Position numbers and translations under genes: made by a program. DNA of 56,571 nucleotides, taken from NCBI RefSeq assembly GCF_900114355.1, contig NZ_FOSS01000002.1, positions 934,345 through 990,915 of the forward strand, read 5' to 3'. Positions 9,307 to 11,732 of this stretch are shown here, one piece after another. The stretch is from Lysobacter sp. cf310. GTDB taxonomy: Bacteria; Pseudomonadota; Gammaproteobacteria; Xanthomonadales; Xanthomonadaceae. The notes under the pieces were generated by a model that was given only the letters and a program-made list of their open reading frames with translations, searched no databases and had not been told where the DNA came from. How positions within the stretch are numbered: the stretch's first letter is position 1; each line of letters begins with the position of its first letter.

Positions 9307-11343
9307 TCAGACGTTGCGCGCGGCCTCGTAGCCGTTGAAGACCAGCGAGGCCGAGGCCCGTCCCTGGGTCAGCGAGCGCAGCGCGGTGGTGTACCCCGAC
9401 AGCTGCGCCAGCGGCGCGCGCGCGGAGACGTCGGCGCGCGTGCCGCGGTCGTCGATCGCCAGCACGCGGCCGGAGCGACGTTGCAGATCGCCGACCACGT
9501 CGCCGACGTTGCCGGCGGGCGTGTCCACGACCAGCGTCATCACCGGCTCCAGCACCGTCGTGCCGCTGAGCGCCAGCGCCGCCTTCAGGGCCTCGCCCGC
9601 CGCGCGTTGGAACGCGAGTTCGGACGAATCCACCGCATGCGTCTCGCCGTCGATCAAGGTCACGGTGAGCCCGACCACCGGATAGCCGCGCGGCCCTTCC
9701 ATGAGCGCGCTGCGCAGTCCCTTTTCCGTCGCAGTGACGAAGTTGCGCGGGACCACGCCGCCGCTGGTGCGGTCGACGAACTCGAAGCGACCGTCCGTGC
9801 GCGGCTCGACGTCGATGACCACACGCGCGAACTGGCCGATGCCGCCGTTCTGCTTGGACAGCTTGCCTTCGACGCCCGCGACCGCGCGGCTCGGGGTTTC
9901 CTGATACGCCACGCGTGGCGAACCGGTGCGCACCTCGACCTTCCACTCCTGACGCAGGCGCTCCACCATCACTTCCAGGTGCAGTTCGCCCATGCCCCAG
10001 ATCAGGGTCTCGCCGGTGTCCTCGTCGCTGCCGACGTGGAACGACGGATCCTCCTGGGCCAGGCTGGCCAAGCCCTGGCCGAGACGGATCAGATCGTTCG
10101 CGTTGGCCGCGCTCAGTCGCCAGGACAGCACCGCCGGCTGGGCCTGGATCGCGTCCAGCACCAGCTTGCGTTCGCCCGCGCTCAGGGTTTCGCCGCTGAC
10201 CGCGTCCTTCCAGCCCTGCACCGCGACGATCTCGCCCGCATACGCGGCCTCGACGTCGCGGCCGCGATCGGCCTGCACCACGACCAGGCGGCCGACCCGC
10301 AGCGCGCGTTCGCGCCGCGAGGCCCACACGGTGTCGCCGACCCGCAGCGTGCCCGAGTACAGGCGCACGAACGACAGCGCGCCGTGCTCCTTGTGCACGA
10401 TCTTGAAGACCAGGCCGGCCAGGGGACCGGACGCGTCCGGCGCCAGCGCCAGCTCGCCCTGTTCGCTCTCGGCGCGCACCCACGGCCGATCCAGCGGCGA
10501 CGGCAGGTAGTCGACGATCGCGTCCAGCAGCGGTTCCACGCCCTTGTTCTTGAACGCGGAACCGGCCAGCACCGGCGTGCCCGCGCCCGCCAGCGTGCCG
10601 CGACGCAGCGCGGCCTTGAGCAGGCCGGGGTCGATCGCGCGCGCTTCCAGGTAGGCCTGGGCGAGTTCGTCGTCGTGATCGGCGACGGCCTCGATCAGGC
10701 GCTGGCGCAGCGGCTCGTAGGCGCGGCTTTCGTCGCCGTCCCAGGGCCGGCGCGCGATGGCGTCGTCGAGGCCCCACAGCACGATCTCGCGCGCCACGTA
10801 GTCGACCCAGCCGCGCAGCTCGCCCTCGGCGCCGATCGCCTGGCCCAGCGGCCACGGCTGCGCATCGAGCTTGTCGCGCATTTGCGCCAGCACGAAGTCC
10901 AGCGAGGCGCCGACCCGGTCCATCTTGTTGACGAACGCGATCATCGGCACGCCGTGCCGGCGCGCCTGGCGCCACACGGTTTCCGATTGCGGCTGCACGC
11001 CGTCGACCGCGCTGAACACGGCGACGGCGCCGTCGAGCACGCGCAGCGAACGCTCGACCTCGATCGCGAAGTCGATGTGGCCGGGCGTGTCGATGATGGT
11101 CAGGCGATGCTCGGCCTGACCTTGCGGCGCCCAATGCGTCTGCACGGCCGCGGCGCCGATGGTGATGCCGCGGTCCTTCTCGATCGGACTGAAGTCGGTG
11201 GTGGCGGCGCCGTCGTGGACTTCGCCGGTGCGATGGATCGCGCCGGTTTTCCACAACAGGCGTTCGGTGAGCGTGGTTTTGCCCGCATCGACGTGGGCGA
11301 TGATGCCGAGATTGCGCCAGCGGGAGACAGTGGTGGTGTTCAT
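9307..11343 (-). CDS. EF-G paralogue (FusA2-like translational GTPase)
   Basis: A 678-residue EF-G-family GTPase, shorter than the roughly 700-residue housekeeping EF-G, which in this family normally lies upstream of tuf, beyond the window end. GTPase motifs are G1 AHVDAGKTT (residues 16-24), G2 region KDRGITIGAAA, G3 DTPGH (85-89) and G4 NKMD (139-142). The domain IV core QNGGIGQFARVVI and the domain V end SGYTTALRSLTQGRASASL are present. Members act on the ribosome; paralogues include back-up EF-Gs and ribosome-protection factors such as TetM. Residues alone do not show which this is. No Shine-Dalgarno sequence precedes ATG 11343. It is the only gene after a structured leader. Confidence 0.88.
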   Translation of the reverse strand: MNTTTVSRWRNLGIIAHVDAGKTTLTERLLWKTGAIHRTGEVHDGAATTDFSPIEKDRGITIGAAAVQTHWAPQGQAEHRLTIIDTPGHIDFAIEVERSLRVLDGAVAVFSAVDGVQPQSETVWRQARRHGVPMIAFVNKMDRVGASLDFVLAQMRDKLDAQPWPLGQAIGAEGELRGWVDYVAREIVLWGLDDAIARRPWDGDESRAYEPLRQRLIEAVADHDDELAQAYLEARAIDPGLLKAALRRGTLAGAGTPVLAGSAFKNKGVEPLLDAIVDYLPSPLDRPWVRAESEQGELALAPDASGPLAGLVFKIVHKEHGALSFVRLYSGTLRVGDTVWASRRERALRVGRLVVVQADRGRDVEAAYAGEIVAVQGWKDAVSGETLSAGERKLVLDAIQAQPAVLSWRLSAANANDLIRLGQGLASLAQEDPSFHVGSDEDTGETLIWGMGELHLEVMVERLRQEWKVEVRTGSPRVAYQETPSRAVAGVEGKLSKQNGGIGQFARVVIDVEPRTDGRFEFVDRTSGGVVPRNFVTATEKGLRSALMEGPRGYPVVGLTVTLIDGETHAVDSSELAFQRAAGEALKAALALSGTTVLEPVMTLVVDTPAGNVGDVVGDLQRRSGRVLAIDDRGTRADVSARAPLAQLSGYTTALRSLTQGRASASLVFNGYEAARNV

Positions 11344-11359
11344 GAGATTTTTCGCTATT

Positions 11360-11399
11360 CGTTGCCAACTCGGGAGGCCGCGCGACCCGGTTGGCGACG
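11360..11399 (-). promoter_or_regulatory. Stem-loop between the upstream ORF and the EF-G-like start codon
   Basis: CGTTGCCAAC (11360-11369) plus CGGG (11371-11374) pair with CCCG (11386-11389) plus GTTGGCGACG (11390-11399), with one wobble and one bulge. The stem begins about 11 bases past the upstream ORF stop and ends about 17 bases before the EF-G-like ATG. It is well placed to influence reinitiation or initiation. Confidence 0.6.
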
Positions 11400-11409
11400 G
11401 GGCGCGCGG

Positions 11410-11439
11410 CTAGGTTTCGGTCTCGGCCGCGGTATTCAC
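11410..11439 (-). CDS. Nine-codon upstream ORF (MNTAAETET), in frame with the EF-G paralogue
   Basis: GTG 11439 is preceded by AAGGAG (11448-11453) at an ideal spacing of eight bases and runs MNTAAETET to TAG 11410-11412. It lies exactly 32 codons upstream of, and in the same frame as, the EF-G-like ATG at 11343, with no other stop between. It has a far better ribosome binding site than the main gene. It could be a regulatory upstream peptide coupled to the GTPase by reinitiation, or the UAG could be read through. Coding is inferred from the start signals only. Confidence 0.45.
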   Translation of the reverse strand: MNTAAETET

Positions 11440-11483
11440 GACACGTTCTCCTTGGGATGCACGGGACTGCGGTGGATGGAAAA

Positions 11484-11543
11484 CCGGCGCCGGAGCGCAG
11501 CGCCGGGCCGAACGACGGGCAAAAAAAAACACCCTTGCGGGTG
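11484..11543 (-). terminator. Intrinsic terminator (possible attenuator) in the EF-G paralogue leader
   Basis: On the minus strand GCACCC-GCAA-GGGTGT (core 11530-11543) is followed immediately by nine T residues (11521-11529), a textbook intrinsic terminator about 180 bases upstream of the EF-G-like gene. Its 5' arm GCACCCG (11538-11544) is exactly complementary to CGGGTGC at 11613-11619, inside the candidate leader peptide, so an antiterminator pairing is possible. A second GC-rich hairpin (CCGGCGC..GCGCCGG, 11484-11506) follows without a T run. Confidence 0.75.
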
Positions 11544-11574
11544 CTCGGTATCGTGTGGCGGCGGCGCGGTCGGA

Positions 11575-11673
11575 TCAGCTCGACACGCACTCGCAGATCA
11601 CAGGAGGCAGGCGCACCCGGCCCGCGCTCTCGCGCTGGGCATGCAGCGATATCAGTAGCGGGAACGACTTCAT
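11575..11673 (-). CDS. Candidate leader peptide upstream of the attenuator
   Basis: A 32-codon reading frame (begins MKSFPLLISLHAQRESAG, ends PPVICECVSS) stops about 30 bases before the terminator hairpin. An in-frame ATG at 11703 would make it 42 residues. There is no convincing Shine-Dalgarno sequence. The candidate promoter at 11705-11732 places the transcript start near 11698, so the 11673 ATG would have a leader of about 25 bases. It is proposed from its position only; it could be non-coding leader RNA. Confidence 0.3.
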   Translation of the reverse strand: MKSFPLLISLHAQRESAGRVRLPPVICECVSS

Positions 11674-11704
11674 GGGCGGCAGGGCCGGGTTCTGGGTGCC
11701 CATA

Positions 11705-11732
11705 AGAGTAGGGGCGGCCGCGCCGGAGTCAA
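11705..11732 (-). promoter_or_regulatory. Candidate sigma-70 promoter of the EF-G paralogue leader
   Basis: TTGACT (11727-11732) and TACTCT (11705-11710) are separated by 16 bases on the minus strand. TCTTAT, overlapping at spacing 19, is an alternative -10. The promoter would produce a leader of about 355 bases before the EF-G-like start. The stretch 11733-11890 between it and fadH shows no gene. Confidence 0.45.

Follow-up and report, generated by a model that had tools for sequence, protein, structure and literature searches.

In leader-peptide attenuators of the trp and tet(M) types, the position of a translating ribosome chooses between mutually exclusive antiterminator and terminator folds, and in erm-like inducible resistance genes a drug-bound ribosome stalls at a sequence within the leader. 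A leader frame is also part of the RepY-RepZ system of plasmid ColIb-P9, in which copy number is controlled by an antisense RNA and the loop of a stem-loop base-pairs with sequence lying close ahead of the next start. Many bacteria carry a second copy of EF-G, often without an evident function. The leader of Salmonella mgtCBR contains two short frames, the translation of which is expected to affect stem-loops located before the genes (PMC3641672). The PA5471.1/armZ leader of Pseudomonas aeruginosa contains a short frame and terminators before the gene, and read-through has been proposed to occur on impaired or stalled ribosomes (PMC12057347). Resistance of Stenotrophomonas maltophilia to the EF-G inhibitor argyrin arises through inactivation of fusA1 together with overexpression of FusA2 (PMC6902895). 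The locus of Lysobacter sp. cf310 described below adds to these systems a compound leader, in which a predicted transcription switch (layer 1) is followed by a second short frame and crossing stems (layer 2) before a spare EF-G gene.

The Locus and Its EF-G Paralogue

The window, that is, the whole analyzed stretch of 56,571 nucleotides, contained on its minus strand a gene for a FusA2-like EF-G paralogue of 678 aa (9307..11343; frame and family scores), with a leader of ~360 nt upstream of it on the same strand. A sequence-only reading of this DNA had proposed an attenuator in front of an EF-G paralogue and had compared it with tet(M)-type ribosome-protection genes. The EF-G assignment held, as the protein scored 716.1 bits against the NCBIfam EF-G model TIGR00484 and exceeded its cut-off of 659.4. 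In contrast, the scores against tet_protect (368 bits, cut-off 775) and the tet(M)-type M_W model (243.6 bits, cut-off 1100) were below the NCBIfam cut-offs, which ruled out a tet(M)-type ribosome-protection product. The window paralogue is EF-G proper. A second EF-G in the same genome (C9:14265-16343) is 45% identical to the paralogue. It matched EF-G chains of known structure at up to 1109.5 bits and is regarded as the housekeeping copy.

Distribution of the Paralogue and Its Leader

Among 60 genomes, an orthologue at 61–100% identity was present in the 20 genomes of the same genus (that of the window included) and in three others. At E ≤ 1e-195, a protein search of 397 genomes from the order identified the paralogue in 56, distributed over 8 of 98 genera, and a class-wide search at the same threshold found it in 3 of 369 genomes, all within the order. 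The named carriers were Lysobacter, Xanthomonas, Tahibacter, and Luteibacter. A further genus (g37) is probably Stenotrophomonas, because four of its genomes encode a subclass B3 lactamase above the family cut-off; one of these enzymes was compared with solved structures and closely matched L1. This genus is hence called Stenotrophomonas-like.

The 56 paralogue genomes of the order (397 genomes) constitute a protein-led and unbiased set, and layer 1 was found beside the paralogue in 56 of 56. A layer-1 covariance model built from 23 aligned leaders had a match adjoining the paralogue in 53 of them; in the other three (G080, G229, and G321) the leader was present by reading and with laxer filters, under which 65 of 65 chosen loci matched. 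At E ≤ 0.05 the model matched 101 of the 397 genomes. Fifty matches were read: all 39 at E ≤ 1.3e-5 preceded the paralogue, and all 11 at E ≥ 2e-4 were without a paralogue downstream. Fourteen further matches (E 1.2e-7 to 3.1e-3) adjoined the paralogue by coordinates, among them five at E 2e-4 to 3.1e-3 (G127, G349, G314, G224, and G316). By E-value alone, the weakest Luteibacter copies cannot be told apart from chance, and true and chance matches mix above ~2e-4.

A pattern scan of genome_contigs returned 35 stretches. The paralogue lay downstream in 25 of the 29 that came from the order, the remaining four having ≤280 nt of downstream DNA each, and no EF-G was found downstream of the six from other groups. 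A class-level leader search matched 6 of 340 genomes outside the order (E 4.7e-5 to 9.4e-4). Four of these were represented by loci: two terminator-type matches (L151 and L152) had no EF-G-like frame downstream, no downstream frame was listed for a third (L154), and L153 consisted of a short stretch only. Within the genomes searched, strong matches of the leader occurred only before the paralogue gene. The leader matched no Rfam family, its two matches at E ≤ 5 both being far under the gathering scores, and a description of it was not found in the open PubMed Central literature, a scope outside which most subscription papers lie.

A Putative Transcription Attenuator

All features of layer 1 lie on the minus strand, and the coordinates of the two complementary segments in the sequence-only reading, together with its nine T residues, were exact. 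The promoter-like pair (11705..11732) consists of TTGACT (11727-11732) and TACTCT (11705-11710) with a 16-nt spacer. In the leader alignment, TTGACT was present in every one of the 20 rows from the same genus; a strict sigma-70 scan of the window leader listed no promoter, the pair being only consensus-like. Further downstream, a hairpin (P2, 11620..11640; 97.6% of cells paired, two-sided changes in 2 of 8 pairs) directly precedes segment 2, the antiterminator strand CGGGTGC (11613..11619), which was identified by its pairing with the terminator arm and is perfectly complementary to GCACCCG at 11538-11544. The P3 stem (11555..11601; 11592-11601 with 11555-11563) carries the stop of the leader frame in its loop and showed two-sided changes in 6 of 8 pairs. 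It is followed by an intrinsic terminator (11521..11546; terminator scan and conservation), which comprises segments 3 and 4 in a hairpin within 11527-11546 and a U tract encoded by nine T at 11521-11529. The terminator scan of 651 bases found two terminator-like sites (0.3 expected), one of which is this terminator, and the window leader by itself folded only modestly better than shuffled versions, 8 of 200 of which did equally well (z -1.97). Another terminator-like hairpin (CCGGCGCTGCGCTCCGGCGCCGG followed by TTTT) occupies 11484-11506, between the terminator and ORF2, and is poorly conserved in the alignment.

The leader was compared across 69 distinct upstream regions, which were required to contain the N-terminal motif of the paralogue and at least 450 nt before it, and many of which were found through the leader itself. 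An intrinsic terminator was located between the promoter-like site and the gene in all 69, and a frame of the 32-codon type, the inner segment, and the complementary terminator recurred in every one. The proposed attenuator, against which a lack of conservation of the terminator and the complementary segment in relatives was to count, therefore came through the comparative tests. Segments 2 and 3 paired at 6 of 6 positions in 68 regions and at 5 of 6 in L049; in every region, segment 2 had been taken as the candidate that paired best within 45-95 nt upstream of the terminator, a choice that favors pairing. Segments 3 and 4 paired at 6 of 6 positions in 68 regions and at 5 of 6 in L023.

The triplet of segments 2, 3, and 4 was GGGTGC/GCACCC/GGGTGC in 50 regions and GGGCGT or GGGCGC/GCGCCC/GGGCGC in 14. 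It was intermediate, with a G-U pair, in L051 and differed by single letters in L001, L023, L041, and L049. The inner segment and both terminator arms had changed jointly in 14 of the 15 Stenotrophomonas-like regions, and the two exclusive folds that had been read from one genome thus covary across relatives. This covariation of the antiterminator was zero among the first 23 leaders and arises from the wider set. The whole terminated fold contained 25 double-change cells, vs. 7.2 in shuffles, which ignore relatedness. The layer-1 pattern is far beyond chance.

The Leader Frame and the Predicted Effect of Ribosome Position

ORF1 (MKSFPLLISLHAQRESAGRVRLPPVICECVSS, 11575..11673, minus strand) is a 32-codon frame, and an ATG-initiated frame ran across segment 2 in each of the 69 regions. 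The leader frame had been described as having either 32 or 42 codons, the longer version starting at 11703. The 32-codon start is the conserved one, as its ATG lay 55-61 nt before segment 2 in all 69 regions; the 42-codon ATG is only 1 nt past the -10 hexamer and probably lies upstream of the transcription start. ORF1 was 29-34 codons long in these regions, with its stop 28-39 nt before segment 3. The distance from the ATG to segment 2 was 55 nt in 46 regions, 58 in 5, 61 in 3, 57 in L053 (shifted register), and 60 in 14 Luteibacter regions, so that the frame-keeping spacings of 55, 58, and 61 nt accounted for 54 of the 55 non-Luteibacter regions. The stop was in the same columns across the 20 genus rows, being TGA, TAA, or TAG. 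In Luteibacter, segment 2 was in another codon phase and the frame was still kept; therefore, the frame cannot be explained as a side effect of the segment.

The synonymous constraint that had been suggested as a check of ORF1 was not observed on the peptide: codons 2-18 had 5 synonymous vs. 16 non-synonymous codon variants among 20 genus genomes, and the variable columns by codon position numbered 4, 8, and 5 of 17 each. A conserved peptide of the arrest type (erm or SecM) was not found across the 69 regions, and an NCBIfam search with the 42-aa leader peptide returned no family. The ORF1 peptides of Luteibacter were wholly different and those of the Stenotrophomonas-like genus partly so, and the frames of Lysobacter, Xanthomonas, and Tahibacter shared PLLI-like and GRVR-like stretches. 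Because no peptide constraint is visible, ribosome position, not an arrest peptide, is the likely input, and pairing and ribosome position, not the peptide, appear to be what is conserved. An amino-acid-specific attenuator was rejected because the ORF1 codons differ between genera. AUA occurred within the first 13 ORF1 codons in 41 of 69 frames (11647-11655 in the window) but was rare elsewhere, accounting for 3 of 15410 codons across 23 paralogue genes and for none of the 2286 codons of neighboring genes of the window. A universal AUA stall codon was likewise rejected, as AUA was absent from 28 of 69 frames, including all 15 Stenotrophomonas-like and most Luteibacter frames, and it is at most a lineage feature. 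In four Stenotrophomonas-like leaders (L054, L055, L059, and L134), a -10-like TAGAAT was located a few bases before the ORF1 ATG (7 in L134), and ORF1 may be translated there from a leaderless transcript.

Eleven representatives were folded up to segment 3, with only the RNA downstream of a masked ribosome retained. When the P site was no further along than codon 12, most of the 11 species gave a probability near 1 for pairing between segments 2 and 3, the exceptions being several positions in L023 and codon 10 in L065. The pairing was 0 from codon 14 (codon 16 in L021, L065, and L066), which is partly by construction since upstream RNA was omitted. By calculation only, the placement of the frame lets ribosome position decide the fold, with the switch predicted at about codons 12-16. 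The proposal that a ribosome in the frame covers the antiterminator segment, and that a stalled one leaves it free, was borne out to this extent. When the complete terminator was present, it won at most ribosome positions (exceptions in L022, L023, and L060); therefore, antitermination must be kinetic. In truncated RNA without a ribosome, the antiterminator formed in several species, including that of the window (1.00), and its values were 0.08 in L021, 0.00 in L023, 0.01 in L065, and 0.23 in L066. Taken from comparative sequence data, layer 1 is very probably a ribosome-controlled transcription attenuator.

A Second Frame and Crossing Stems before the EF-G Start

The sequence-only reading was supported for layer 1 and missed ORF2, its Shine-Dalgarno sequence, and the crossing stems. 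Between the terminator and the EF-G start, the leaders contained AGGAGAACGTG, a frame of 9-10 codons, and two crossing stems. On the minus strand of the window, the ORF2 Shine-Dalgarno sequence and spacer (AGGAGAACG, 11444..11452; leader alignment) precede ORF2 (11410..11439), which was found by reading of the leaders and has nine codons (MNTAAETET), a GTG start, and a TAG stop. The 5′ strand of stem S1 (11398..11409) directly follows this stop, the 5′ strand of stem S2 (GCCAAC, 11390..11395) lies in the S1 loop, and the 3′ strands of S1 (11378..11389) and S2 (GTTGGC, 11364..11369) follow, S2 ending 20 nt before the EF-G start. The loop of one stem could thus base-pair with sequence shortly ahead of the following start. 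ACGTG, located between the Shine-Dalgarno sequence and the start codon of ORF2 (~11441-11448), was kept in most leaders, including most Luteibacter rows, and its conservation exceeds what a spacer needs. In L052, L056, L057, L131, and L133, the usual ORF2 stop was TGG and the frame continued into the stems (14 codons; 22 in L056).

Covariation was examined in 54 copies (52 distinct) aligned to an S1 model, an alignment that leans towards S1. Two-sided changes were present in 7 of 11 S1 pairs among the 52 distinct rows. S1 and an extended S2 together contained 53 double-change cells (45 in S1), vs. 23.4 (sd 3.6) in shuffles that ignore relatedness and at most 11 when the stems were slid; a free alignment of 22 copies gave 6 vs. 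2.4 in shuffles. The six core pairs of S2 were invariant in 52 of 52 rows and are thus without covariation there, and three possible extension pairs were unpaired in 14, 23, and 44 of 52 cells. S2 was GCCAGGGGC with GCCCCTGGC in most Luteibacter rows, several of which were judged by eye because the automatic search missed or mis-chose the stem, and GCCAACCGG with CCGGTTGGC in L023. By reading, S1 used the last ORF2 codons in several Luteibacter rows. A layer-2 model with S1 matched 39 of the 397 genomes of the order at E ≤ 0.05; the 35 at E ≤ 1.5e-12 coincided with the full set of 56 paralogue genomes once 20 Luteibacter and G037 were left out, and the other four had E 0.03 or worse. One Luteibacter leader (L069, G251) was without layer 2, having only 64 nt from the terminator to the EF-G motif. 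Both stems are very likely real. It is likely, judging from their arrangement, that they form together as an H-type pseudoknot, and they might instead be alternative to each other.

Proposed Regulation and Alternative Explanations

These results suggest that the two-layer leader probably keeps the spare EF-G off during normal translocation. A fast ribosome moving through ORF1 would cover or pass segment 2, and segments 3 and 4 would form the terminator. Slow movement of a ribosome over roughly the first 13 ORF1 codons would leave segment 2 exposed, so that it could take up segment 3 ahead of the synthesis of segment 4, and RNA polymerase would continue into the EF-G gene. On the read-through mRNA, ribosomes would load at the strong ORF2 site and reach the stop beside S1, where they may open or refold the crossing stems and thereby control translation of EF-G or couple it to that of ORF2. 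The signal is more likely than not a general slowing of translation, which would include cases in which the housekeeping EF-G is scarce or inhibited. A 2017 study by Jones et al. is said to have reported strong upregulation of fusA2 upon loss of fusA1, and the overexpression of FusA2 upon FusA1 loss in S. maltophilia fits an EF-G homeostat. Against this two-layer reading, the lack of amino-acid constraint in ORF1 is as expected of an untranslated element too. A more speculative and rather unlikely extension is that the leader acts as a meter of EF-G activity, with layer 1 sensing translocation and layer 2 sensing recycling through ribosomes left at the ORF2 stop; if true, a lack of working EF-G for one task or the other would turn on the spare copy, and a core translation factor would be under a homeostatic loop.

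Layer 1 has the same anatomy as leader-peptide attenuators, and Lysobacter makes and meets antibiotics. A drug-bound ribosome could accordingly stall at a particular ORF1 sequence, with EF-G as the resistance factor, and the PLLI-like and GRVR-like stretches common to three genera would suit an arrest peptide; however, the divergence of the Luteibacter and Stenotrophomonas-like peptides and the excess of non-synonymous variants within the genus make such an antibiotic-specific device improbable. The stronger conservation of nucleotides than of amino acids points in another direction, namely to a ligand or protein (for example, EF-G or a ribosomal protein) that binds the leader, with translation of ORF1 incidental or absent. 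A GATAT stretch that was largely conserved in the first 23 leaders, yet unpaired in the consensus fold, and the ability of the antiterminator to form without a ribosome in several species are consistent with this explanation. On the other hand, all 69 regions retain the ATG and the stop, the stop takes three different forms at one place in the genus alignment, the spacing keeps the frame outside Luteibacter and has an other-phase counterpart within it, and no Rfam family matches; these points argue against it, and it is given slightly less credence still than the arrest peptide. The single-genome data, in which the leader folds only slightly better than shuffles, would permit an ordinary terminator with a chance complement, EF-G being expressed from another promoter; conservation, joint covariation, and association with one gene leave this explanation next to no plausibility. 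A ribosome-controlled attenuator remains the preferred reading of layer 1.

For layer 2, coupling and blocking are close to even. As a plain translational repressor, the stems would keep the ribosome-binding site of EF-G closed until ORF2 carries a stalled ribosome. The end of S2 so near the EF-G start, and the placement of the S1 5′ strand, on which a ribosome that has reached the end of ORF2 would sit, fit a repressor, as do the AGGA-type bases at the EF-G starts of many Stenotrophomonas-like and Luteibacter rows; such Shine-Dalgarno-like bases could be blocked, and they weaken the idea of coupling. However, the EF-G starts of the window and several Lysobacter have no obvious Shine-Dalgarno sequence to hide, although that of ORF2 is strong, and this combination suits coupling; the starts in L008-L012 have a weak AAGG. 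Blocking is therefore a serious possibility that falls short of an even chance, and a coupler, which may be marginally preferred, comes only a little nearer to one.

Comparison with Known Systems

As in trp- and tet(M)-type attenuators, the exclusive folds of the present leader would be chosen by ribosome position; unlike in these, ORF1 has no run of codons for one amino acid, and the product is EF-G proper. The nearest analogue of layer 2 is, by analogy of its parts, the RepY-RepZ pseudoknot, which shares with it a leader frame and a loop that pairs just before the start of the next gene, whereas the frame of the present leader stops short of the stem-loop and has a putative transcription attenuator upstream of it. 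The mgtCBR leader also contains two short frames and, unlike the present one, belongs to an operon for Mg2+ transport and virulence. Among ribosome-stall attenuators, the armZ leader is the nearest described, with a short leader frame, terminators before the gene, and a proposed ribosome-dependent read-through. It controls an anti-repressor of an efflux pump, whereas the present leader precedes a translation factor, and a second frame and a pseudoknot layer are absent from the accessible description in PMC12057347. In S. maltophilia, a second EF-G is overexpressed on fusA1 inactivation; the Stenotrophomonas-like genus carries the present paralogue and leader, and FusA2 is presumably this paralogue. 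A whole group of bacteria keeps a spare EF-G under a leader that seems to gauge how fast ribosomes move, which, if true, would explain how the spare EF-G is called up when the main EF-G fails or is inhibited.
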